DNA of 64,000 nt from Defluviicoccus sp. (GTDB taxonomy: Bacteria > Pseudomonadota > Alphaproteobacteria > MPNO01), in assembly GCA_022823775.1 (NCBI GenBank), contig JAJEHI010000171.1:62001-126000 (forward strand), given 5' to 3'. Position numbers and translations under genes: made by a program. Under the pieces are notes generated by a model. The model searched no databases and was not told the origin of the DNA. It saw nothing but the letters and a program-made list of their open reading frames with translations. The stretch's first letter is position 1, and each line of letters opens with the position of its first letter. This document shows positions 35,676 through 47,296 of this stretch, in pieces.

Positions 35676-35695
35676 ACCTGACAGGGAGAGAGTCC

Positions 35696-36721
35696 TTGGC
35701 AAACGCCACCGAAGAGGCGAGGCCGGACCTCGCTAACGACGATATCGGGGAAGAGGCCCGGCTCGCGCTCTGGCGCTCGCAGCTCGAAATCCGCCATGTC
35801 GAGCAGCGCGCCCACGACCTGTTCCTGCAGAACCTCGTCAAGGGGACGGTGCACCTGTCGCTCGGGCAGGAGGCGGTGGCGGCCGGGTTCGCGGTGGCGA
35901 TGGAAGAAGGCGACTACACGTTCTGCACCTATCGCGGCCACGCCCACACGCTCGCGAGGGGCGCCTCGATGTCGGGGGTCCTGGGCGAGCTGATGGGCCG
36001 CGAATGCGGATTGCTGAACGGCAAGGGCGGCTCGATGCATCTGACCAGCGTCGAGCACGGCGCGATGGGCTCCTACGCCATTATCGGCGCGCACCTGCCC
36101 ATCGCCATGGGCGCGGCATGGTCGGCGCAGTACCGCGGCACGAGCCAGGTTTCGGTCTGCTTCTTCGGCGATGGCACCACCAATATCGGAGCGTTCCACG
36201 AGGCGCTCAACATGGCGCAGGTCTGGAAGCTCCCGGTGATCTTCGTCTGCGAAAACAACCTCTACATGGAATACACGCCGATCGGCGACGTGACGGCGGT
36301 GGAGCATCCCGCGGCGGACCGCGCGCAGGCCTATGGCATGGATTCGATCATCGTCGACGGCAACGACGCGGATGCGGTCTACCGCGTCGCCCGGGCGGCC
36401 TACGAGAAGGCGCGATCGGGCGGCGGTCCCTCGTTGATCGAGGCCAAGACCTATCGCCAGTGCGGGCATTCGCGCGCCGATCCGGGGGCTTACCGGCCGG
36501 ACGAAGAAGTCGCGGAATGGCTCGCCCGCGACCCGATCCCGGCCTATCGCCGGAGGCTGCTCGATTTCGGTTTCGCCGAAACCGCGGTCGACGGCATCGA
36601 GACCGAAGTGCTGGCGGCGGTCGACGCGGCGACCGATGTCGCCAGGTCCTCGCCGCCGCCGCCGCGGGAAATCCTCGAGACCGAGGTCTATGCCGACGGA
36701 GGCGCGGCATGGCGGAACTGA
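35696..36721 (+). CDS. TPP-dependent 2-oxoacid/acetoin dehydrogenase E1, alpha subunit
   Basis: A 341-residue E1-alpha. The TPP-binding motif runs from GDGTTNIG (near residue 158) to CENN (near 185), and CTYRGHAHTLARG near 78 and NGKGGSMHLTS near 108 are typical of PdhA/AcoA. The start is a TTG at 35696 with AGGGAGAGAG upstream; the frame is open far upstream but there it is antisense-like sequence in the M24 gene. It follows M24 by 20 nt and overlaps E1-beta by 13 nt. Its size and the neighbouring dehydrogenase fit acetoin dehydrogenase as well as a branched 2-oxoacid enzyme. Confidence 0.9.
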   Translation: MANATEEARPDLANDDIGEEARLALWRSQLEIRHVEQRAHDLFLQNLVKGTVHLSLGQEAVAAGFAVAMEEGDYTFCTYRGHAHTLARGASMSGVLGELMGRECGLLNGKGGSMHLTSVEHGAMGSYAIIGAHLPIAMGAAWSAQYRGTSQVSVCFFGDGTTNIGAFHEALNMAQVWKLPVIFVCENNLYMEYTPIGDVTAVEHPAADRAQAYGMDSIIVDGNDADAVYRVARAAYEKARSGGGPSLIEAKTYRQCGHSRADPGAYRPDEEVAEWLARDPIPAYRRRLLDFGFAETAVDGIETEVLAAVDAATDVARSSPPPPREILETEVYADGGAAWRN

Positions 36722-37683
36722 CCTGCCGCGAGGCGGTCGCGGCGGCGATCGCGCAGGAGATGAGGCGCGACCCCTCGGTCGTGTTCCTCGGCGAGGACAT
36801 CGGCGCGGCGGGCGGCGTGTTCAAGACCACCGTCGGGCTGTTCGAGGAATTCGGTCCGGACCGTGTGCGCGACACGCCTATCTCGGAACAGGCGATCGTC
36901 GGCGCCGCGATGGGCGCGGCGATGACCGGGCTGCGGCCCATCGCGGAGCTCATGTTCTCCGATTTCTTCGCGGTGTGCTGGGACCTGGTGGCCAACGAGA
37001 TCGCCAAGTCGCGCTATATGACCAACGGCCAGGTTTCGTTCCCGCTGGTGATCCGAAGCGCCAACGGAGGCGGCGCCCGGTTCGGCGCCCAGCACTCCCA
37101 GGCGATCGAGAACTGGGCGATGATGATCCCGGGGCTGAAGGTCGTCGCCCCGTCCAATCCGGCCGACATCGTGGGGCTGCTGGCGGCCTCGATCCGCGAT
37201 CCGGACCCGGTGGTCTTCTTCGAGCAGAAATCGCTCTACGGCACCAAGGGGGCGGTCCCCGACGGTGAGCATGTCGACACTCTCGGAACCGCGAAAGTCG
37301 TGCGCGAGGGGAGCGACGCCACCATCGTCGCGCTCGCCGCCATGGTTCCGCGCGCCGCGGAAGCGGCCGACCGGCTGGCCGAGGAAGGAATTTCCTGCAA
37401 GGTGATCGACGTTCGGACCCTGGTGCCGCTGGATACGCAGACGATCCTCTCCGCCGTTTCGGAGACCGGCCGGCTGTTCACCGTCGAGGAAAACCCGAGG
37501 CTTTGCGGCTGGGGGGCGGAGATTTCCTCGATCGCGAGCGAGGAGTGCTTCTACGACCTGGACGGTCCGATCGTCCGCATAACCACGCCCCACATCCCTC
37601 TGCCGTCCGCCGACAATCTGGAGGATCTGGCGCTGCCTTCGGTCGAACGGATCGCGGAGACCGTTCGCGTGAACATGGGTTGA
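36709..37683 (+). CDS. TPP-dependent 2-oxoacid/acetoin dehydrogenase E1, beta subunit
   Basis: A 324-residue transketolase-type E1-beta. It opens LTCREAVAAAIAQEM and has the conserved GEDIGAAGGVFKTT near residue 31, DTPISEQAIVGAA near 58, and the C-terminal-domain VIDVRTLVPLDTQTIL near 235. E1-alpha and E1-beta form an alpha2-beta2 tetramer that decarboxylates the substrate and hands the acyl or hydroxyalkyl group to E2 lipoate. Its ATG lies 13 nt inside the end of the E1-alpha gene, so translation is coupled. Confidence 0.92.
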   Translation: MAELTCREAVAAAIAQEMRRDPSVVFLGEDIGAAGGVFKTTVGLFEEFGPDRVRDTPISEQAIVGAAMGAAMTGLRPIAELMFSDFFAVCWDLVANEIAKSRYMTNGQVSFPLVIRSANGGGARFGAQHSQAIENWAMMIPGLKVVAPSNPADIVGLLAASIRDPDPVVFFEQKSLYGTKGAVPDGEHVDTLGTAKVVREGSDATIVALAAMVPRAAEAADRLAEEGISCKVIDVRTLVPLDTQTILSAVSETGRLFTVEENPRLCGWGAEISSIASEECFYDLDGPIVRITTPHIPLPSADNLEDLALPSVERIAETVRVNMG

Positions 37684-37690
37684 GGGCGCG

Positions 37691-38872
37691 ATGGACGTCC
37701 TGATGCCCCAGCTCGGGGAGACCGTGACCGAGGGGACGGTGATCGCCTGGCACAAGGCGGCGGGAGACACGGTCAAGTCGGACGAAATCCTCTTCGAGGT
37801 CTCGACCGACAAGGTCGATACCGAGGTGCCGGCCCCGGCTGACGGGGTGCTTTCGGAAATCCTGGTGGAGGCGGGAAAGACCGTCCCGGTGGGCACTCGG
37901 CTCGCGGTGATCGGCGGTGCCGGAGATTCCGCCGCCGCTCCGGAGCCGACGGCCGCCGCACCGGCCGATACGCGGGTCGTGAGCCGCTCGATCCCGCTCG
38001 ACTCGGTGCCGCGTAGGGATGCCCGCGGGCGACCGCTGTCCCCGGCGGTTCGTCGGCTGATCGCCGAGCACGGGCTCGACGCGACGGCGATTTCCGGCAC
38101 CGGCAAGGACGGCCGGATCACGCGCCAGGATGTCGAGGCTCTTCTCGCGCCGGAGCCGGCCGAATCGGACCTCGTTCCGCTCGGCCGGATGCGCAAGCAG
38201 ATCGCCGAACACATGGTCCGCTCCAAGGCGACCAGCCCGCACGTGCTCCAGGCCGTCGAGGTCGATTTCCACGCCGTGGAACGGGCCCGCGGCCTGCACG
38301 GCGAGGAATGGAAGGCGAAAGAGGGGTTCTCGCTCAGCTACCTGCCCTTCATCGCTGCCGCCGTGTGCCAGGCGATCCCCGATTTCCCGCATGTCAACGC
38401 GAGCGTCGAGGGCGACAATCTGCGCATCCACCGCCGGATCCACCTCGGGATCGCGGTCGATCTCGGCCCCGGCGGGCTGGTGGCGCCGGTAATACGGGAG
38501 GCCCAGGAGATGGGCTTGCCCACCCTCGCCCGGGCTATCCGGAGCGTTGCGGCGGCGGCCCGCGACGGCTCGGCCGGGCCGGACGATCTCGTGGGCGGCA
38601 CCTACACGATTTCCAACTCGGGCACGTTCGGCACCCTGATCACCGCGCCGATCATCAACCAGCCGCAGGTGGCGATCCTGTCGACCGACGGAGTGCGGAG
38701 AAAGCCCGCGGCGATCGAGACAGCGGGCGAAGAGGCGATCGCCATCCGTCCGATCGGCGTGCTCGCGCAGTCCTTCGATCATCGCGCCATCGACGGCGCC
38801 TACTCGGCCGGCTTCCTCGGCCGCGTGCGCGAGATACTCGAGCGGACCGACTGGTCCGCTGCGCTGGGGTAG
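37691..38872 (+). CDS. dihydrolipoamide acyltransferase E2 component
   Basis: A 393-residue E2. One lipoyl domain (residues 1-76) carries the modified Lys in STDKVDTEV near 41; the E3-binding domain lies near 110-150 (PAVRRLIAEHGLD then GRITRQDVEALL); the catalytic domain ends with the active-site SFDHRAIDGAYSA near 360. It transfers the acyl group from lipoate to CoA. It starts 7 nt after E1-beta. No E3 (dihydrolipoyl dehydrogenase) gene is in the window, so the housekeeping E3 would have to serve this complex. Confidence 0.92.
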   Translation: MDVLMPQLGETVTEGTVIAWHKAAGDTVKSDEILFEVSTDKVDTEVPAPADGVLSEILVEAGKTVPVGTRLAVIGGAGDSAAAPEPTAAAPADTRVVSRSIPLDSVPRRDARGRPLSPAVRRLIAEHGLDATAISGTGKDGRITRQDVEALLAPEPAESDLVPLGRMRKQIAEHMVRSKATSPHVLQAVEVDFHAVERARGLHGEEWKAKEGFSLSYLPFIAAAVCQAIPDFPHVNASVEGDNLRIHRRIHLGIAVDLGPGGLVAPVIREAQEMGLPTLARAIRSVAAAARDGSAGPDDLVGGTYTISNSGTFGTLITAPIINQPQVAILSTDGVRRKPAAIETAGEEAIAIRPIGVLAQSFDHRAIDGAYSAGFLGRVREILERTDWSAALG

Positions 38873-38875
38873 TGG

Positions 38876-39925
38876 ATGCGCGCTGTAATCATGGAAAGGT
38901 TTGGCGGGCCGGAAGTGCTCAGGCCCGCCGAGGTGCCGGCGCCCGACCCTGCGCCGAACGAGGTCGTGGTGGCGGTCGAGGCGGTCTCGATCAACCGCAG
39001 CTTCGACCTACTGGTCAGGCGCGACGGCAACAACCGCAACATCGTCCTGCCGCATGTGCTGGGCGCCGACCCCGCGGGCACCGTCGCGGCGGTGGGAGAC
39101 GACGTGGACGAATTCTCGTCCGGCGACCGGGTCGCCGTTTCCTCGACCATTCGCTGCGAGAACTGCCGCGAGTGCGTCGACGGGGACGAGGCCGCGTGTC
39201 GGGCCCCGGTCATGATCGGCGTCCATCGCTGGGGCGGGTACGCCGAGCAGGTGGCCGTGCCGGCAGCCAGCGCCCATCGCATTCCGGACGGAATTTCCGC
39301 CGCCGATGCCTGTGTCGTCCTCCGGCACGCACCGGCCGCATACAATCAGCTGATCGACAAGGCCGCTCTCCGGCCGCACGAGTGGGTGCTGGTGATGGGC
39401 GCGGCCGGCGCGCTGGGCAGCTTCTGCGTCCAGGTGGCCAAGTCTCTTGGCGGCCAAGTGATCGCCGCGGCGGGATCCGATAGCCGGGTCGAGGCGGCGC
39501 TCGCGCTGGGCGCGGATCGCGGGGTCAATTACCGTGCGGAAAACCTGGCGGAAGCCGTCCGGCGGTTCACCGGCGGCGAGGGAGCGGACGTGGTGTGCGA
39601 GAACATCGGCGACCCGCTCCTCTGGGACGGCGCCTTCGACAGCATGGCCCAGCGCGGGCGGCTGGTCACGATGGGCGCGCATGGCGGCGGCAAGGTCTCA
39701 TTGGACGTCCGCAAGCTCTATTCGAAGCGGCTTCGGCTGATCGGATCGGCCGGGGTGACGGAGAAAAACACCGAAGACTCGTTCTCCGCCGCCGCCCGGG
39801 GAGACCTCGTGGCGCTGATCGATTCGGTCCACCCGCTGGAGGACGCGGCCGCGCAACATCGCCGGCTGGAAGAGGACCGCTCGGCGATCGGCAAGGTGAT
39901 CCTCGATCCCACCATGGCGGCGTAG
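38876..39925 (+). CDS. zinc-binding alcohol dehydrogenase (MDR family)
   Basis: A 349-residue medium-chain dehydrogenase with the structural-zinc cysteines CENCRECVDGDEAAC near residue 99-113. GADPAGTVAAVGDDVDEF near 62 and the cofactor loop GAAGALGSFCVQVAK near 178 are standard. It starts 3 nt after E2. An alcohol dehydrogenase beside an aco-like E1/E2 set recalls 2,3-butanediol/acetoin operons, but the specificity is not readable here. In its pathway it would oxidise an alcohol to the ketone or aldehyde upstream of the E1 reaction, or reduce a product. Confidence 0.88.
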   Translation: MRAVIMERFGGPEVLRPAEVPAPDPAPNEVVVAVEAVSINRSFDLLVRRDGNNRNIVLPHVLGADPAGTVAAVGDDVDEFSSGDRVAVSSTIRCENCRECVDGDEAACRAPVMIGVHRWGGYAEQVAVPAASAHRIPDGISAADACVVLRHAPAAYNQLIDKAALRPHEWVLVMGAAGALGSFCVQVAKSLGGQVIAAAGSDSRVEAALALGADRGVNYRAENLAEAVRRFTGGEGADVVCENIGDPLLWDGAFDSMAQRGRLVTMGAHGGGKVSLDVRKLYSKRLRLIGSAGVTEKNTEDSFSAAARGDLVALIDSVHPLEDAAAQHRRLEEDRSAIGKVILDPTMAA

Positions 39926-39934
39926 GAGGCACGC

Positions 39935-41215
39935 ATGTCCGTCGAACCCCTGCTACCGGTCGCCCTCGGCAACGGCCGGGTCCACTATGCGCCGGGGGTG
40001 CGCGCAGGGTCCTGGGTATTCGCGAGCGGCCACATGGCGCAGGATTACGGGCATGGCATCGCCGCCTCGGTGCTCCGCGAGGGCGCGCCCAACGCCGCCG
40101 GGCCGAAGGCCGCGCGCGAGGCCGCGCGCGTGTTCGACAATGTCGAGGCGGTACTCGCGGCGGGCGGGGCCAGCCTGGAGCGGGTCGTCCGCACCGACCA
40201 GTACTACACCACCGTCGCCATGGTGCCGCCCTACCAGGCCGCGCGGCGGCAGCGATTCGGCGTGCTGATCCCGCCCTCCACGTCGATCGTCCAGCAGGGG
40301 CTGCTGCTGCCGGGCGCCGCGCTCGACCTCCAGGTCGTCGCGGTCGCCGGAGACGGCCCGCCGGTCGAACATATCGACCACGAAACGCTCAGCGGTCAGC
40401 CGACCTCGGGCTATTCGGCGGCGCTCACGGCCGGCGACTTCGTCTTCGTGCCCGGCAACACCGCGACGGCGGTCGCCGGCGAAGAGGCGCGCAACGGCGT
40501 CGCCGCCGAAGCCCTGATCAAGCAGGGCCAGCTTTGGGGCGGCGAGCGGCTCCGGCTCGAGGCGGAGTTCATCGTCAGGCGCCGGCTGCTTCCCTCTCTC
40601 GACCTCGCGGGGCTCGGCCCGGCGGATGTGGTCAAGGCGCAGATCTACCTGACCGATCCCGGGGATTGCGCGGTCGTGCACGACGTCTGGGCGGAGCATT
40701 TCGGTGCCGGCGCCGCGGTTTCGGTGATCCCCTGCGTGCCGCGCGGCCTGGTGATCGAGGACGGCAGGATCGAGATCAACATCCTCGCTCACCGCGACGG
40801 CAAAACGATCAAGACGGCGGTGGCGGCGGGCGTGCCGCCCACTTTCGAGAACCAGGCGGAGGCCGTGCGCTGCGGCGACCTCCTGTTCCTCTCCGCTCTG
40901 ATGGCGGCGGACGGGGATGGCCCGCTCACGGCACCCGACCCGCGCCAGCCTCACTTCGCCGAGCGCGCGGGCGACGAAGCGGAGGCGATCCTGGATGCCG
41001 CGGCCGCGCTTTGCGAAGCGGCGGGCACTTCTCTGGAGAATGTCGTCCGAGTGCAGCAGTTCCAGACCGACATCGCCGATTTCTATGCCGTGCACCAGGC
41101 TTGGCAACGCCGCCTTCCCGGCCGGCCGATCCCGTTCTCGGCGGTCGAGGTTCCGGGTCCGCTTCCGGTTCCCGGCTGTTCGGTGATGATGGATCTCTGG
41201 GTTTACGCACCTTAA
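39935..41215 (+). CDS. triple RidA-domain protein (three tandem YjgF/YER057c/UK114 domains)
   Basis: A 426-residue protein, about three times the size of RidA (about 130). Domain 1 covers residues ~10-145, domain 2 ~150-290, domain 3 ~295-426. Each has the family's WVFASGHMAQD / FVFVPGNTA / LLFLSALMAAD-type strand followed by the helix leading into a LERVVRTDQYY / VVKAQIYLTD / LENVVRVQQFQTD strand. The Arg that in RidA deaminates enamines/imines (R-S-x-V context) is replaced by Thr116, Val262 and Phe401, judged by eye. It may therefore be a binding or structural trimer in one chain, or use another chemistry. GGAGG precedes the ATG; it starts 9 nt after the dehydrogenase. Confidence 0.82.
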   Translation: MSVEPLLPVALGNGRVHYAPGVRAGSWVFASGHMAQDYGHGIAASVLREGAPNAAGPKAAREAARVFDNVEAVLAAGGASLERVVRTDQYYTTVAMVPPYQAARRQRFGVLIPPSTSIVQQGLLLPGAALDLQVVAVAGDGPPVEHIDHETLSGQPTSGYSAALTAGDFVFVPGNTATAVAGEEARNGVAAEALIKQGQLWGGERLRLEAEFIVRRRLLPSLDLAGLGPADVVKAQIYLTDPGDCAVVHDVWAEHFGAGAAVSVIPCVPRGLVIEDGRIEINILAHRDGKTIKTAVAAGVPPTFENQAEAVRCGDLLFLSALMAADGDGPLTAPDPRQPHFAERAGDEAEAILDAAAALCEAAGTSLENVVRVQQFQTDIADFYAVHQAWQRRLPGRPIPFSAVEVPGPLPVPGCSVMMDLWVYAP

Positions 41216-41233: not shown

Positions 41234-42154
41234 ATGCGCCTCGCCGTACCGGACATGATCTCGAACTCCTACTTCCCGGCGATTTCGGCGGTCGAGCTCG
41301 GCGATTTCGCGGAACAGGGGCTCGACGTGAGCCACGAGCTGATCTACCCCGTCGACAAGTGCTACGGGGCGCTCCGCGACGGCGAGGTCGATCTGATCGG
41401 CGGCTCGGCACACGCCGTGCTCTCCGCCTTCCCCCGCTGGGAGGGGGCGAAGCTGCTTTGTTCGCTTTCCCAGGGGATGTACTGGTTCCTCGTCTTGCGC
41501 GCGGACGAAAGCCACCGGCGCGGCGATCTCGGCGCCGTCAGGGGAAAGAAGATCGGCGCCGCGCCCTGGGTCGATTGCGGGCTCAAGCGGATGCTGCGGG
41601 AGGGCGGAATCGACCTTGAGCGCGACGAGGTCGAAATCGCTCCGGTGCCGGGCACCTCGGGGCCGAGGGTGAGCTTCGGCGTGACCGCGGCGCGGGCGCT
41701 CGAAGAAGGTCTCCTCGACGGTTTCTGGGCCAACGGCATGGGGGCGGAGATCGCGGTCACGCGCGGCGTCGGGACCGTCGTGGCGGACGTGCGCCGGGGC
41801 GACGGCCCGAAGCCCGCGTTCAACTACACCCAGCCGGTCCTGGTCGCGACCGACAGATTTATCGCGGACCGACCGGACGATGCCGCCGCCGCGGTCCGCG
41901 CCATCGTCTCGACCCAGGACAAGCTCAAACAGGATGTCGGCCGCGCGACCGCCATCGGCGAGAAGCTTTTCGGACCGGACGAAGCGAAGCTGATCGCGCG
42001 GGTGGTGGAACGCGACCTGCCCTATTACGACCCGGCGATCTCAGAGAGCTTCGTCGAAGGCATGAACGCTTTCGCGCTGGACATGGGAATCCTCGACCGC
42101 CCGGTCCCGTACGGGCAGGCGGTCGCGACCGAGTTCGCCGACCTCTGGGCCTGA
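41234..42154 (+). CDS. NMT1/THI5-like periplasmic-binding-fold protein without signal peptide
   Basis: A 306-residue protein of the SsuA/NitT/THI5-like binding-protein group: LAVPDMISNSYFPAISAVELGDF at the start, LIGGSAHAVLSAFPRWEG near 55, GKKIGAAPWVDCGLKRML near 105 and VLVATDRFIADRPD near 202. There is no signal peptide: the start ATG (AAAGGAG upstream) leads straight into the fold, and there is no room upstream, since the triple RidA gene ends 18 nt before. No ABC permease or ATPase is adjacent. It may be a cytosolic ligand-binding protein or an enzyme of the THI5 type. Last gene of the operon. Confidence 0.78.
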   Translation: MRLAVPDMISNSYFPAISAVELGDFAEQGLDVSHELIYPVDKCYGALRDGEVDLIGGSAHAVLSAFPRWEGAKLLCSLSQGMYWFLVLRADESHRRGDLGAVRGKKIGAAPWVDCGLKRMLREGGIDLERDEVEIAPVPGTSGPRVSFGVTAARALEEGLLDGFWANGMGAEIAVTRGVGTVVADVRRGDGPKPAFNYTQPVLVATDRFIADRPDDAAAAVRAIVSTQDKLKQDVGRATAIGEKLFGPDEAKLIARVVERDLPYYDPAISESFVEGMNAFALDMGILDRPVPYGQAVATEFADLWA

Positions 42155-42155
42155 T

Positions 42156-42782
42156 TCACTTCACCGGCGAGTAGTCCGCCGCAAAGCAGATCTTGCATTC
42201 CTGCGTGAGGATCGGGTCGGGTCCGCCGCTGACGTTCTTGGGCGGCCAGATGCCTTTCTCCCTGGCTTCTTCGCGCACCTCCCGGCGGTGCTCCAGACTC
42301 TCATAGCCCCAGATGTGAACGAACTTGTTGAGCACGCCGCATTCGGTGACCATCGCCATGACCAGCGGCGAGCTCTTGACGCGCTCTTCGATGGCGGTGG
42401 ACCAATTCTCGATCAGGGCCGGCTGCCCGTCGGCGCGCATCATGTATTCGCGCCATTCGAAGACCGGCCCGAGGTCGCCGCTCCCCATCGTCGGGGTGAA
42501 GGGCAGAGGGGTGAAAATCTCCGACTGCATGGTCTCCAGGAGATGGGAGACCTTGGGCGGCCAGTTGGGGTCCTTGCCGCCTTCGACGCGGAGCCTCTCG
42601 CGCTCGCCCATGTCGGCATAGGGCCAGATGTGGATGACCTGGTTGAGGGGCCCGATCTCGGTATAGAGCATCGCGCTGATCTGCGAGAGCTTGCCGCGCG
42701 TCTCGTAGCCTTCCGCGAAGAGTTTGAGGAATTCGGGCACCTTGCCGCGCGATACGCGATAGCTCCTGGCTTCGTAGATCAT
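42156..42782 (-). CDS. NIPSNAP-family protein with two domains
   Basis: A 208-residue protein made of two NIPSNAP (ferredoxin-like dimeric alpha/beta barrel) repeats. The first begins IYEARSYRVSRGKVPEFL and contains LNQVIHIWPYADMGERERLR near 58; the second has FEWREYMMRADGQP near 113 and LNKFVHIWGYESLEHRREVR near 160. The repeated HIW-Y pattern confirms the duplication. AAAGGA precedes the ATG at 42782; the longer frame to 42950 is not supported. It ends one base from the operon-end gene on the other strand and follows the hydroxyacid dehydrogenase by 22 nt. Function unknown. Confidence 0.85.
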   Translation of the reverse strand: MIYEARSYRVSRGKVPEFLKLFAEGYETRGKLSQISAMLYTEIGPLNQVIHIWPYADMGERERLRVEGGKDPNWPPKVSHLLETMQSEIFTPLPFTPTMGSGDLGPVFEWREYMMRADGQPALIENWSTAIEERVKSSPLVMAMVTECGVLNKFVHIWGYESLEHRREVREEAREKGIWPPKNVSGGPDPILTQECKICFAADYSPVK

Positions 42783-42804
42783 GACCGGTCCTTTCCGTTC
42801 GGTG

Positions 42805-43869
42805 TCAGATGAGGCTGTCGCCGGCGAACCGCTGACGCCACAGCGGGATTGCGTCGGGGTTGCAGACATTCTCCGGAACCTCGCCCCTGACGGCTGCGAA
42901 AATCGCCTTCTCGACCCACGGCACCGCCATCTGCAAGCCGGTGCCGACATTGTTTGAAATCATGTGCGGCGACAGCAGCACCTTGTCGCCGAGCCCGAGC
43001 AGCGGCGTTTGCGGCGGGGGCGGCTCCTCGGGCAGGACATCGAGCGCGGCGGCGGCGAGCCTGTCGGAGTGGAGCGCGTCGAACAGCGCGTCGATATCGA
43101 CGATAGGGCCGCGCGCGGAATTGATCAGGACCGCGCCCGGCTTCATCAGCCCGAGTTCGCGCGCCCCGATCATGCCGTCCGTTTCCGGGGTGAGGTTGCA
43201 GTGGATCGTCACCGCGTCGGCTTCGGACAACAGCTCGTCGAGCGACACGCGGCGCACGTTGCGGCTCACGAACTGCGAGTCGTGGGCGTAAGGATCGTAG
43301 GCCAAAAGGCGGACGCGCCAGGGTGCCAGCAAGTCGGCCACGCGCGAGCCGATGCGCCCCAGGCCGATTATCCCGACCGCGATCCCCGGGTAGTCGTCCG
43401 TCAGCCGCGCGCCGAGATAGGTTCCCATCAGGGAGGGGTCGCGCCACTGCCCGTCTTTCACGCTCCGGTCGCGCTCGCGCACCTTCTTGAAGAGCGCGAG
43501 CAGAAAGGTGACCGCCCCTTCCGCGACGCCGCCCCAGTTGCTCTCGGTCGGGCTGTTGACGACCAGAATGCCGAGTTCGGTCGCCGCCGCCTCGTCGACA
43601 TTGTCGTAGCCCACGGAATACTTGGCGATCAGCCGCAGGTCGGGCGCCGATCGGAGAGTGCGGCGCGTGAGGATGTTGAGGCGGTTGGCGACCCCCGCGG
43701 CGGCGACCGTCGACGGGGCGAAGACGAGCTCGGTCGATTCGCCGGACCTGTTGGCGGCCTGCGACCATGGCTCGTCGGGAACCCGAACGTCGAGCCCCGC
43801 CTCGCGCATCCGCTCGTAAGACCCGCCGCTCGCATCGACGGCGGCATAAACATGGACCTTCGGTTGCAC
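42805..43869 (-). CDS. D-2-hydroxyacid dehydrogenase family protein (CtBP/SerA type)
   Basis: A 354-residue NAD-dependent dehydrogenase. The dinucleotide motif GIIGLGRIGSRVADLL is near residue 165; the catalytic Arg lies in NSARGPIVD near 252, the Glu in DVLPEEPPPP near 280 and the His in LSPHMIS near 305. The start is a GTG at 43869 with AAGGGA upstream; a frame running to 44025 is not needed. It may interconvert a 2-hydroxyacid and a 2-oxoacid, which would fit the 2-oxoacid/acetoin dehydrogenase genes facing it. It is followed by the NIPSNAP gene. Confidence 0.86.
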   Translation of the reverse strand: MQPKVHVYAAVDASGGSYERMREAGLDVRVPDEPWSQAANRSGESTELVFAPSTVAAAGVANRLNILTRRTLRSAPDLRLIAKYSVGYDNVDEAAATELGILVVNSPTESNWGGVAEGAVTFLLALFKKVRERDRSVKDGQWRDPSLMGTYLGARLTDDYPGIAVGIIGLGRIGSRVADLLAPWRVRLLAYDPYAHDSQFVSRNVRRVSLDELLSEADAVTIHCNLTPETDGMIGARELGLMKPGAVLINSARGPIVDIDALFDALHSDRLAAAALDVLPEEPPPPQTPLLGLGDKVLLSPHMISNNVGTGLQMAVPWVEKAIFAAVRGEVPENVCNPDAIPLWRQRFAGDSLI

Positions 43870-43894: not shown

Positions 43895-44287
43895 TTATTC
43901 GTCGGGAATGTCGGAGACGTGGGCGGACACAATCCGCCAACCCTCGGGCATCCGTACCCAGCATTGACTCTGGCGGCCGACCATGCGCCCGTCGGGCCGG
44001 GTCGCTTCGGTATCGGCCATAGCAAAGTCCCGTCCGAACGTCTTGATCACCGTGTTGCGCAGCGTCCGTTCGACGCCCGCGATATTGCGGTTGCGGCGGA
44101 ACAGGTCGATCGCGCGGTGGCCCAGCAGGGTGCCGTTCGGACCGTAGCGCAGCGTAAGCGGGCTGTCCCAGAATAGCGTCGCGAGCGTGTCGACGTCATT
44201 GATGCCGAGCGCCTGCTCATAGCGCTCGAAAGCCGCCGTCACCTCCGCGACCACCTCGGGAATATTGACTTCGTGCGGTTCCGCCAC
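43895..44287 (-). CDS. HpxZ/AtzH-like (DUF3225, SnoaL-fold) protein
   Basis: A 130-residue protein. EVVAEVTAAFERYEQALGIND near the N-terminus (in parts), TLATLFWDSPLTLRYG, RTLRNTVIKTFGRDFA and the end GRQSQCWVRMPEGWRIVSAHVS match the DUF3225 family, whose named members are HpxZ of oxalurate catabolism and AtzH of the cyanuric acid pathway. Those genes normally sit beside an amidase (HpxW/HpxX or AtzE/AtzG), none of which is here. The start is a GTG at 44287 with GGAGAGA upstream; a huge frame open to 47164 is an antisense shadow. It lies 25 nt upstream of the hydroxyacid dehydrogenase gene. Confidence 0.82.
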   Translation of the reverse strand: MAEPHEVNIPEVVAEVTAAFERYEQALGINDVDTLATLFWDSPLTLRYGPNGTLLGHRAIDLFRRNRNIAGVERTLRNTVIKTFGRDFAMADTEATRPDGRMVGRQSQCWVRMPEGWRIVSAHVSDIPDE

Positions 44288-44419
44288 CTTGTCTCTCCGC
44301 CGACGCTTGCCGGGCGCAAGAATGTCGGGATTGCCCCGCCGGTTCAACCGGGCGCCGCTTGTCACGGCGACGCGGCGGCTGCATGCTCGACGCGGACGGG
44401 AACGCAGGGATCGGGCAGT

Positions 44420-45805
44420 TTGGAAGAACAGAGTCTCAGAGGCTTCATCGACAAGGTGGAGAACGTCGCGCCGGACGAGGTGCTGCGCGTGGCCGAACCG
44501 GTGAGCCGCGAACTGGACATCACCTCCGCGGTGTTCGAGCTCGAACGGGCGGGCCGCAGCCCCATCGCGATCTTCGAGAACGTCGAAGGGTTCGACATGC
44601 CGGTGGTCACGAACGTCGCCGGCAACCGGAAGCTGCTTGGCCTCGCCCTCGGCGTTGCGCCGGCGGACCTGCCGGGCGCGTATCGGGAACGCTGCCAGAA
44701 CTACCAGCCGGTGGAAACGGCCTCGGACGCTCCCTGGCAGGAGACGGTGCTGGAAGGGGACTCGGTCGACCTTGGGAAGCTGCCGATCCCGCTCCATTTC
44801 GGGGTCGACGCCGCACCCTACATAACCGCGGGGCAAATCGCGGCGCGCGATCCGGAAACCGGCGTCGACACCACCGGCTTCCATAGGTTGATGCTCCGGG
44901 GCCGGGACCGGCTGGGGCTGTCGCTCCATTCGCGGCGCCGCATGTACGAGTACCACCGCCGCGCCGAGGAACGCGGGGAAGACCTGCCGGCGGCGATCAC
45001 GCTCGGCATCCACCCGATCCACTATATGGGCTCGATGGCCTATCACTATCCGCCGAGCGTCCGGAAGGTGGAGATCATCGGCGCCCTGTTCGGCGAACCC
45101 TACCGCGTCGCCCGATGCCGCACGGCGGACCTCGAAGTCCCCTGGGGGGCGGAGATCGTCATCGAGGGCCGGATACTCGCCGGGGTGCACGAGCCGGAGG
45201 GTCCGTTCGGAGAGTTCACCGGATACGCCTCCTATCGTTCGACCGAGAATGTCTTCGTCGCGGAGCGGATCCAGATGCGGAGCGACGCGATGTTCCATTC
45301 GGTCGCTTCCGGTACGGCGCCCGACCATATCCTGATTTCGAGCATTTCGCGGGAGGCGGAGATCCTCAACGCGCTTAGGCGCAACCTCCCCAACGTGCGT
45401 GCCGTCCATGTGCCGACGACCACGGTGGGCGCTCTGATGGCGATCGTGTCGATGCGAAAGACCGCGGAGGGTCAGCCGCGCCAGGCAATAATGAGCGCGC
45501 TCGGCACCGAGTTCTACGTCAAGTGCGTCGTCGTCGTGGACGACGACGTGGACGTGTTCGATCTTTCGGACGTGATGTGGGCGGTGATCACTCGCACCCG
45601 CGCCGAGAGCGACGTGATCTACATCCCGGGCGCGATGGGCGCGATTCTCGATCCGACCTCGGATCCGGAGACTCGTACGGTGACCAAGGTGGGCATCGAT
45701 GCGACCAAGCCGTCGGGGCGCGACTTCGCCGAGCGGTTGACCATCGCGGACGAGCAGAGAGCCAGGGTGCGCGGCATTCTGGAGCGAGCGGGCATCCGAA
45801 CCTGA
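44420..45805 (+). CDS. UbiD-family (prenylated-FMN) decarboxylase
   Basis: A 461-residue UbiD-type decarboxylase. The family's opening (LRGFIDKVEN), VVTNVAGNRKLLGLALG near residue 57, GLSLHSRRRMYEYHR near 165 and the active-site stretch PEGPFGEFTGYAS near 258, with the conserved Glu residues, are all present. It decarboxylates or carboxylates unsaturated or aromatic acids with prenyl-FMN, which needs UbiX; no ubiX is in the window. The start is taken as the TTG at 44420, since residues upstream look non-coding; a candidate promoter is TTGTCA at 44359 with CATGCT 17 bp on. Being divergent from the HpxZ-like gene, it may be co-regulated with it. Confidence 0.87.
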   Translation: MEEQSLRGFIDKVENVAPDEVLRVAEPVSRELDITSAVFELERAGRSPIAIFENVEGFDMPVVTNVAGNRKLLGLALGVAPADLPGAYRERCQNYQPVETASDAPWQETVLEGDSVDLGKLPIPLHFGVDAAPYITAGQIAARDPETGVDTTGFHRLMLRGRDRLGLSLHSRRRMYEYHRRAEERGEDLPAAITLGIHPIHYMGSMAYHYPPSVRKVEIIGALFGEPYRVARCRTADLEVPWGAEIVIEGRILAGVHEPEGPFGEFTGYASYRSTENVFVAERIQMRSDAMFHSVASGTAPDHILISSISREAEILNALRRNLPNVRAVHVPTTTVGALMAIVSMRKTAEGQPRQAIMSALGTEFYVKCVVVVDDDVDVFDLSDVMWAVITRTRAESDVIYIPGAMGAILDPTSDPETRTVTKVGIDATKPSGRDFAERLTIADEQRARVRGILERAGIRT

Positions 45806-45892
45806 TCGACCTCGGGACGGGTCCGGGCCGGCTTGCGTCGGCGCCTCGCGCGCGCCATCGTCGCACGGTCGGGATGCCGAATTGGGGGAGTC

Positions 45893-47296
45893 GTGCGCGC
45901 CAGATTCAGGACGAGGGCGGATGCCAAGACCGTCCCGATTATTCCGATCGAGAAGGACGTGTTCGATGCGTGGCGCGCGGATCGGCCGGAGGCGATACGC
46001 GCCTGGGTGGACAGCACCGGCTTCAAGGCCGCGCCGCGGAGCCTGAGCTTCCTTTCCGGCGATAACAATGCGCTCGGCAGCGTTCTTCTGGGTGTCGAGT
46101 CGCACGACGAGTTCTGGGCTTACGCGGACCTCCCCGGTCGGCTGCCCGCGGGTGCCTACCGGATCGATGCGCGGATGGACCGCGCGGCCGCTACCGGCGC
46201 GGCGCTCGGCTGGGCACTCGGCTGCTATGCCTTCGACCGTTACGCCGCCAAGTCCGCCGGGCCGGTTCCGTCCCTGGTCTGGCCGGAGGGCGCCGACCGC
46301 GCCCATGTGCGCTCGGCGGCCGAAGCGACGACCGAGGTTCGGGACCTGATCAACACGCCGGCCGGGGACATGGGTCCGGCGGAGCTTGCCTTGGCCGCCC
46401 GGAAGATCGCCGACGAAGGCGGCGCCAGGGTCACCGAGATCAAGGGCGACGCCCTGCTGCGGCGCGGCTATCCGACGATCCACGCAGTCGGGCGGGCCAG
46501 CGCCAACGCGCCGCGGCTGATCGATCTCCGCTGGGGCCGGACGGGCGCCCCGAAGGTCACGCTTCTCGGCAAGGGCGTGTGCTTCGATTCGGGCGGTCTC
46601 GACATCAAGCCGGCCCAGGGCATGCTCCGCATGAAGAAAGACATGGGCGGTGCGGCCCATGCGCTTGGGCTCGCCCGGATGATCATGTCGGCGAAGCTCG
46701 GTGTCAGGCTGCGCGTGCTGATACCGGCGGTCGAGAACAGCATCTCGGGCAACGCGCTGCGGCCGCTCGACATCGTCAAGACACGGAGCGGAATTACCGT
46801 CGAGGTCGGCAATACGGACGCCGAAGGGCGGCTTATCCTTTGCGACGCCCTGACCGAGGCGGAGACCGAGCGGCCCGACCTCCTCGTCGACTTCGCGACG
46901 CTCACGGGCGCGGCGCGGGTCGCGCTGGGGGCGGAGTTGCCGGCGTATTTCTGCAATAACGATGCGCTCGCGGAGGAATTGTCGAGCGCCGGCGAGGCAG
47001 TTTCGGATCCGCTGTGGCGCCTGCCGCTCTGGCAACCCTATCGCCGCATGCTGGACAGCAAGACGGCCGATATCAACAACGTTTCCGAGGGCGGGATGGC
47101 CGGGGCGATCACCGCCGCGCTCTACCTGCAGGAATTCGTGGACCGGACAACGCCCTGGATCCATCTCGACATCATGGCGTGGAACCCCACCGCCCGACCG
47201 GGCCGACCGGTCGGCGGCGAGGCGCAGGGCATGCGCGCGCTGTATGCGCTGATCGAACGCCGGTTCGGCAGGAAGAAGCGCCGGGGCAGGAGCTGA
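45893..47296 (+). CDS. leucyl aminopeptidase family protein (M17)
   Basis: A 467-residue M17 metallopeptidase. The metal and catalytic residues lie in GKGVCFDSGGLDIKP near residue 228, MLRMKKDMGGAAHAL near 245 and the signature NTDAEGRLILCDAL near 308; LINTPAGDMGP near 155 starts the catalytic domain. The N-terminal domain is short and divergent. The GTG at 45893 has GGGGAG very close upstream; an earlier start at 45833 is possible. It removes N-terminal residues from peptides. It precedes the peptide importer but on the opposite strand, convergent with only a 4-nt gap. Confidence 0.87.
   Translation: MRARFRTRADAKTVPIIPIEKDVFDAWRADRPEAIRAWVDSTGFKAAPRSLSFLSGDNNALGSVLLGVESHDEFWAYADLPGRLPAGAYRIDARMDRAAATGAALGWALGCYAFDRYAAKSAGPVPSLVWPEGADRAHVRSAAEATTEVRDLINTPAGDMGPAELALAARKIADEGGARVTEIKGDALLRRGYPTIHAVGRASANAPRLIDLRWGRTGAPKVTLLGKGVCFDSGGLDIKPAQGMLRMKKDMGGAAHALGLARMIMSAKLGVRLRVLIPAVENSISGNALRPLDIVKTRSGITVEVGNTDAEGRLILCDALTEAETERPDLLVDFATLTGAARVALGAELPAYFCNNDALAEELSSAGEAVSDPLWRLPLWQPYRRMLDSKTADINNVSEGGMAGAITAALYLQEFVDRTTPWIHLDIMAWNPTARPGRPVGGEAQGMRALYALIERRFGRKKRRGRS

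Follow-up and report, generated by a model that had tools for sequence, protein, structure and literature searches.

RID3, a single-chain triple Rid protein of Defluviicoccus without the catalytic arginine of RidA

The window, which is the whole stretch of 64,000 nucleotides of Defluviicoccus DNA analysed here, encodes a single chain of 426 residues in which three Rid domains, each a copy of a small fold of detoxifying enzymes, follow one another and the catalytic arginine of RidA is missing from each. The protein, which we name RID3, belongs to what sequence comparison indicates is a rare, conserved family, newly described here. Our leading reading, in which we place roughly even confidence, is that RID3 is a covalent Rid pseudo-trimer of 3x-RidA descent, most likely repurposed as an asymmetric enzyme acting on an organic-acid enol, keto or enamine compound. 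The domains, orthology, conservation and absence of the arginine on which this reading builds were observed directly, and the fold and its trimer-like closure come from a predicted model.

The three domains and the arginine position

RID3 matched one Pfam family, PF01042, in three stretches (E 2.3e-30 over the whole protein), and in the genome profile search each domain individually exceeded the curated cut-off of 27.3 bits (Table 1). Together with the Rid fold described below, this match places RID3 in the Rid / YjgF-YER057c-UK114 superfamily. The RidA subfamily model TIGR00004 was not reached (75.4 bits against a curated 106.25), and the catalytic Arg105 that marks this subfamily is absent from every RID3 domain.

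The Arg105 column was located by aligning the RID3 domains with E. coli RidA as reference and with the remaining 29 Rid domains that the genome encodes. No arginine was found at this position, or within two residues on either side of it, in any domain of 19 orthologues; counts for domain 3 are out of 18, since L054 lacks it at a contig end. This bears out the original prediction that all three copies lack the residue, which had been placed by eye. For domain 1 the prediction had named Thr116, and the occupant is most likely Ser115, in a PPSTS sequence that represents the common P-x-S/R-T motif. Its choice for domain 2, Val262, is one of two placements, the multiple alignment having Ser263 in the column with an offset of one residue possible. 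Phe401, its choice for domain 3, agrees with a profile alignment to solved Rid chains, one multiple alignment being shifted to Ser402; Pro400-Phe401 is invariant (18/18).

Across the 19 orthologues domain 1 also has invariant Arg86, Asp88, Gln89, Tyr90, Tyr91 and Thr92, and domain 2 invariant Gln236 and Tyr238. Glu120 corresponds to Asp131, which many orthologues replace by Asn, to Glu280 and to Met418, and basic residues are conserved at the Lys73 position: Arg86 in 19/19, Arg372 in 18/18 or more, and Lys/His234. In RidA, Arg105 clamps a carboxylate. With this clamp missing, RidA-type imine hydrolysis, that is, deamination by the Arg105 mechanism, is unlikely.

Table 1. RID3, its domains and marker codons, and the adjoining genes, in positions of the window
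Feature	Position	Strand	Basis or remark
2-oxoacid dehydrogenase E1 alpha	35690..36721 (start approximate)	+	PF00676; conserved in genus
2-oxoacid dehydrogenase E1 beta	36640..37683 (start approximate)	+	PF02779/PF02780
2-oxoacid dehydrogenase E2 acyltransferase	37691..38872	+	PF00198
Medium-chain (quinone-oxidoreductase-like) zinc-type dehydrogenase (MDR)	38876..39925	+	PF00107/PF08240; 9-nt gap to RID3
RID3, single-chain triple Rid protein, 426 aa	39935..41215	+	ORF, PF01042 x3, AlphaFold2 model, dN/dS
RID3 Rid domain 1	39980..40345 (contig 101980-102345)	+	Pfam match, 41.3 bits
PPSTS codons, residues 113-117; Ser115 at Arg105 position of domain 1	40271..40285	+	Invariant 19/19; E. coli RidA alignment
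RID3 Rid domain 2	40400..40792	+	Pfam match, 38.4 bits
Val262-Ser263 codons, Arg105 position of domain 2	40718..40723	+	Alignments; relative L090 carries Arg here
Glu280-Ile281-Asn282 codons; Glu280 is Glu120 equivalent of domain 2	40772..40780	+	Invariant 19/19
RID3 Rid domain 3	40862..41152	+	Pfam match, 31.2 bits; fold runs on to ~41212
Phe401 codon, Arg105 position of domain 3	41135..41137	+	Profile alignment; Phe in 18/18
NMT1/SsuA-like solute-binding-fold protein, signal peptide not evident	41234..42154	+	PF09084 at cut-off; 18-nt gap from RID3
NIPSNAP protein, convergent	42156..42950	-	PF07978 E 2.6e-40

Known triple Rid proteins and the descent of RID3

The name 3x-RidA was given by Niehaus et al. 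(2015; PMC4433059) to proteins with three tandem RidA domains, such as EF_0115, described as 'presumably covalently linked trimer units'; no further use of the term was found in the literature searched. The same authors described Rid proteins without the arginine, namely Rid4-Rid7 and the roughly 10% of RidA that carry Ser (Niehaus et al., 2015, PMC4433059). The novelty that had been implied for a single-chain trimer therefore does not stand. Since 3x-RidA and Arg-less Rid proteins were both known, neither the fusion nor the loss is new, and RID3 extends what was known by uniting the two in a single conserved family. RID3 has the three tandem domains per chain of a 3x-RidA and, in an unrooted tree, shares descent with those that bear the arginine. 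The Arg-less groups Rid4-Rid7 and Ser-type RidA resemble RID3 in having no Arg at the Arg105 position and a P-x-S-T motif like that of its domain 1, but they are single domains in trimers, whereas RID3 has three different replacements within one chain.

The search for other triple chains that had been proposed along with the original prediction was productive, and it led to rejection of the idea that an Arg-less one is unique to RID3, since the class contains others. This genome encodes a second (C114), with Ser at the Arg position in all three domains, and additional ones were found in G051, G182, G079 and G093. Of the 29 Rid domains elsewhere in the genome, 15 lack the arginine and 14 have it; so common a state need not signal a new activity. 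In all, the genome (G000) yields 32 matches to the Rid domain, spread over about 26 ORFs and about half of them Arg-less, which far exceeds the maximum of sixteen Rid proteins that has been cited for Bradyrhizobia. In G051 (L048 6697-7950 and 8001-9332) and G182 (L098 3-1115 and 1123-2415) two distinct Arg-less triple-Rid genes lie side by side, amounting to six domains in two chains.

The 3x-RidA of the same genome (C6:17204-18409) also has three tandem Rid domains, is likewise a proposed covalent trimer and lies adjacent to RID3 in trees; its repeats are near-identical with PAR in all three domains (Arg/Arg/Arg), whereas the RID3 repeats are divergent. L090, a relative from genome G298 with 39% identity to RID3, has PAST, PPAR and PATT, and thus Ser/Arg/Thr, at these positions. 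In the full-chain tree RID3 and L090 grouped together (support 99/98) beside the C6 3x-RidA and G079 (group support 94/95). In the domain trees, domains 1, 2 and 3 formed one well-supported clade each across the orthologues, shared with L090, so the triplication is older than the RID3 family. From these comparisons the family appears to be derived from a 3x-RidA lineage. Since its nearest relatives are Arg/Arg/Arg and Ser/Arg/Thr, a stepwise loss is suggested, from Arg/Arg/Arg through Ser/Arg/Thr to Ser/Val-or-Ser/Phe with domain 2 last, in a direction that we infer from unrooted trees displayed with a midpoint root. The 3x-RidA at L039 6776-8425 (G000:C6) consists of three nearly identical repeats, each with PPARTTVG, which suggests that re-triplication or gene conversion took place recently.

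Within the reach of its seed patterns, a scan of 84,980 species genomes found 18 RID3 loci, four of them in Defluviicoccus, in Alpha- and Betaproteobacteria and Acidobacteria, and additionally one weak single-domain match. RID3 was present in 2 of 385 sampled genomes of the class and 1 of 398 of the phylum, both counts including this genome of 4.8 Mb, and in 5/5 congeneric genomes, the congeners being Defluviicoccus MAGs.

Predicted fold and structural relatives

An AlphaFold2 model of RID3 built with 19 sequences had a pLDDT of 88.8 and a pTM of 0.90 (75 and 0.82 when built with 6 orthologues). Residues 1-140, 142-287 and 292-425 of the model each aligned separately to Rid chains, with Z of 10-11 and rmsd of about 1.8-2.2 Å over about 121-125 residues. 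The model thus holds no fewer than three Rid folds and, together with the three PF01042 matches, confirms the earlier claim of three Rid domains in 426 residues. That a single chain makes up the entire trimer, its three clefts differing from one another, is very probably also correct, judging from the model and its whole-chain matches; a trimer-like closure of the barrel is what the pTM and these matches point to.

The top whole-chain matches were the chorismatases FkbO/Hyg5 (5a3k, 4bps), with Z 25.4 and 3.0 Å over 283 residues of the model, positions 25-424. Chorismatases are pseudo-trimeric Rid-like chains, as the alignment made here also indicates, and FkbO/Hyg5 (4bps, 5ag3) share with RID3 a single-chain Rid-like fold at about 15% identity. 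Whole-chain alignments were also obtained with cyanuric acid hydrolases and other AtzD relatives (Z about 11) and with human FBXO22 (Z about 16), the latter a hint of a concatenated Rid-like arrangement in the C-terminal part of FBXO22. Cyanuric acid hydrolase (AtzD) has been proposed to derive from three concatenated YjgF units (Peat et al., 2013, PMC3758960). In the Toblerone fold, to which barbiturase also belongs, the active site lies in the central barrel and comprises three Ser-Lys dyads together with a metal site; these dyads and this site are not evident in RID3. A true member, a cyanuric acid hydrolase/barbiturase protein, is encoded elsewhere in this genome (L089, G000:C101:4273-5349; PF09663 E 1.9e-122), so that another type of fold derived from concatenated Rid units is present in the same cell.

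2-Aminomuconate deaminase AmnE is a Rid protein of aromatic catabolism, and RID3 orthologues lie near aromatic-acid genes; AmnE, however, retains the arginine, as Arg117, and its single-domain chains assemble into a homohexamer (PMC6742747). By comparison with AmnE, the invariant Gln89 and Tyr91 of RID3 seem to face the barrel, and for this reason a barrel-centred active site may be considered.

Neighbourhood and possible functions

The gene order E1 alpha, E1 beta, E2, MDR, RID3, NMT1-like was seen in the congeneric genomes whose contigs extend that far. Outside the genus the neighbours of RID3 orthologues include TctC receptors, Amidohydro_2 proteins, a DHDPS-like gene, a gentisate-dioxygenase-like bicupin and, at L062, a 4,5-dihydroxyphthalate-decarboxylase homologue (L062a, E 2.1e-42), with a related gene in L055. 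The relative L090 adjoins an SsuABC-type transporter, identified by eye from translations. The common theme would be the import and degradation of organic acids, often aromatic ones, a pattern weakened by the abundance of TctC, Amidohydro_2 and transporter genes in such genomes and by the single ancestral arrangement that many Hyphomicrobiales loci share. Neighbours vary among the RID3 loci, and no conserved one names a substrate; a PDB sequence search with the NMT1-like protein of the window gave one spurious match only. Two further observations concern the surroundings. A weakly matrixin-like gene with a signal-peptide-like start lies between E2 and MDR in congeners (L053 4096-4893, L051 3301-4137) and is absent from the window. 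The 1089-residue ORF at 43895-47164 (-) is largely spurious; its last ~124 residues (~43895-44272) correspond to an AtzH-like gene, and the UbiD decarboxylase gene at 44273-45805 (+) runs divergently from it.

The order of loss, the roles of the clefts, the catalysis and the pathway we infer as follows. The ancestor would have been a 3x-RidA with the imine-deaminase arginine in every domain, which was then lost stepwise. The three domains of RID3 would close into a central beta-barrel of the RidA-trimer type, with three clefts between domains that differ from one another; in a homotrimer the three clefts are all alike, and once the copies were fused each could diverge. Domain 1 would retain a polar set (Arg86, Asp88, Gln89, Tyr90, Tyr91, Ser115-Thr116-Ser117) and domain 2 a putative general acid/base, Glu280, with Asn282; the cleft of domain 3, where Phe401 replaces Arg, looks closed. 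Conservation thus suggests that domains 1 and 2 keep chemistry and that domain 3 is blocked by Phe401. RID3 would be an enzyme of small molecules that can do without the clamp of Arg on a carboxylate and uses one or two of its clefts; its candidate substrates would be intermediates in the catabolism of organic or aromatic acids that bear an enol, keto or enamine group. AtzD is a precedent, its concatenated YjgF units having become an enzyme (PMC3758960), and the original idea of a new binding or catalytic role is plausible. Tentatively, RID3 may even represent, in addition to chorismatase and AtzD, another enzyme lineage that arose from a concatenated Rid trimer, in which fusion freed the clefts, Arg was lost stepwise and an asymmetric domain 1/2 cleft (Asp88, Ser115-117, Glu280) took up a new reaction, not on imines, in the breakdown of aromatic or organic acids.

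The main rival to an enzyme is a binding protein, which we regard as rather less than likely: a non-catalytic pseudo-trimer for binding, sensing or scaffolding, one cleft of which holds an organic acid, and which has the adjacent dehydrogenase or transporter as its partner. The sequence signature of a binding or sensing protein would be identical; such a role would suit the absence of Arg from all domains and the filling of the domain 3 cleft by Phe401, as well as the solute-binding-fold proteins that adjoin RID3 in the window, L062 and L055 and the transporter read by eye beside L090. Yet the invariant Glu280/Asn282, Asp88 and Ser-Thr-Ser look like retained chemistry, and L062a is a decarboxylase homologue rather than part of a transporter. 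The conserved basic residues at the Lys73 position and the Glu120 equivalent of domain 2 could instead belong to an imine or enamine deaminase in which other residues, Arg86 or Arg372 among them, bind the substrate in place of Arg105. This we consider unlikely, as RidA is nearly inactive once this arginine is lost, the Arg-less Rid7 of S. enterica has no detectable activity (PMC4433059), and 14 other Rid domains of the same genome have the arginine.

The original prediction had proposed a role specialised for this operon, and RID3 is indeed tightly packed with E1 alpha, E1 beta, E2 and MDR (3-9 nt gaps), in an order kept by congeneric genomes. The dehydrogenase genes adjoin RID3 only in its own genus, however; orthologues of other orders lie among different genes, entirely without them, and in congeneric genomes an extra gene separates E2 from MDR. 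Operon partnership was rejected as a general rule, and a dedicated partner of the 2-oxoacid dehydrogenase is improbable. That RID3 is itself a chorismatase or a cyanuric-acid-hydrolase-type (Toblerone) enzyme, as the whole-chain matches might suggest, is very improbable, and membership of both groups was rejected on family models. At E <= 0.1 RID3 matched PF01042 alone and not the FkbO_Hyg5-like N-terminal chorismatase model, nor did it match PF09663 (AtzD_TrzD), which detects the separate AtzD/TrzD gene of the genome; a PF21168 profile search of the genome was empty, its controls silent too and so uninformative alone. The catalytic Glu334 of Hyg5 (PMC7170507) would fall near Met418 by end-to-end extrapolation, and its equivalent is not evident in domain 3. 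Three losses of the catalytic arginine might also mark a decaying, functionless duplicate, but dN/dS against three congeneric orthologues (0.16, 0.18 and 0.25) indicates purifying selection and, with many invariant columns in 19 orthologues across phyla, rules this out in practice.

Sequence similarity alone is often the basis on which a Rid protein is annotated as an imine deaminase, an annotation that for the RID3 family is probably wrong. RID3 and the intermediates with one or three arginines offer a natural series in which to study how the fusion of a homotrimer may let identical active sites diverge towards new functions. The acidobacterial orthologue L066 (5875-7245) has a Tat-like N-terminal signal (DRRGFLLGG...ARAQ), its start codon being uncertain, and may be exported.
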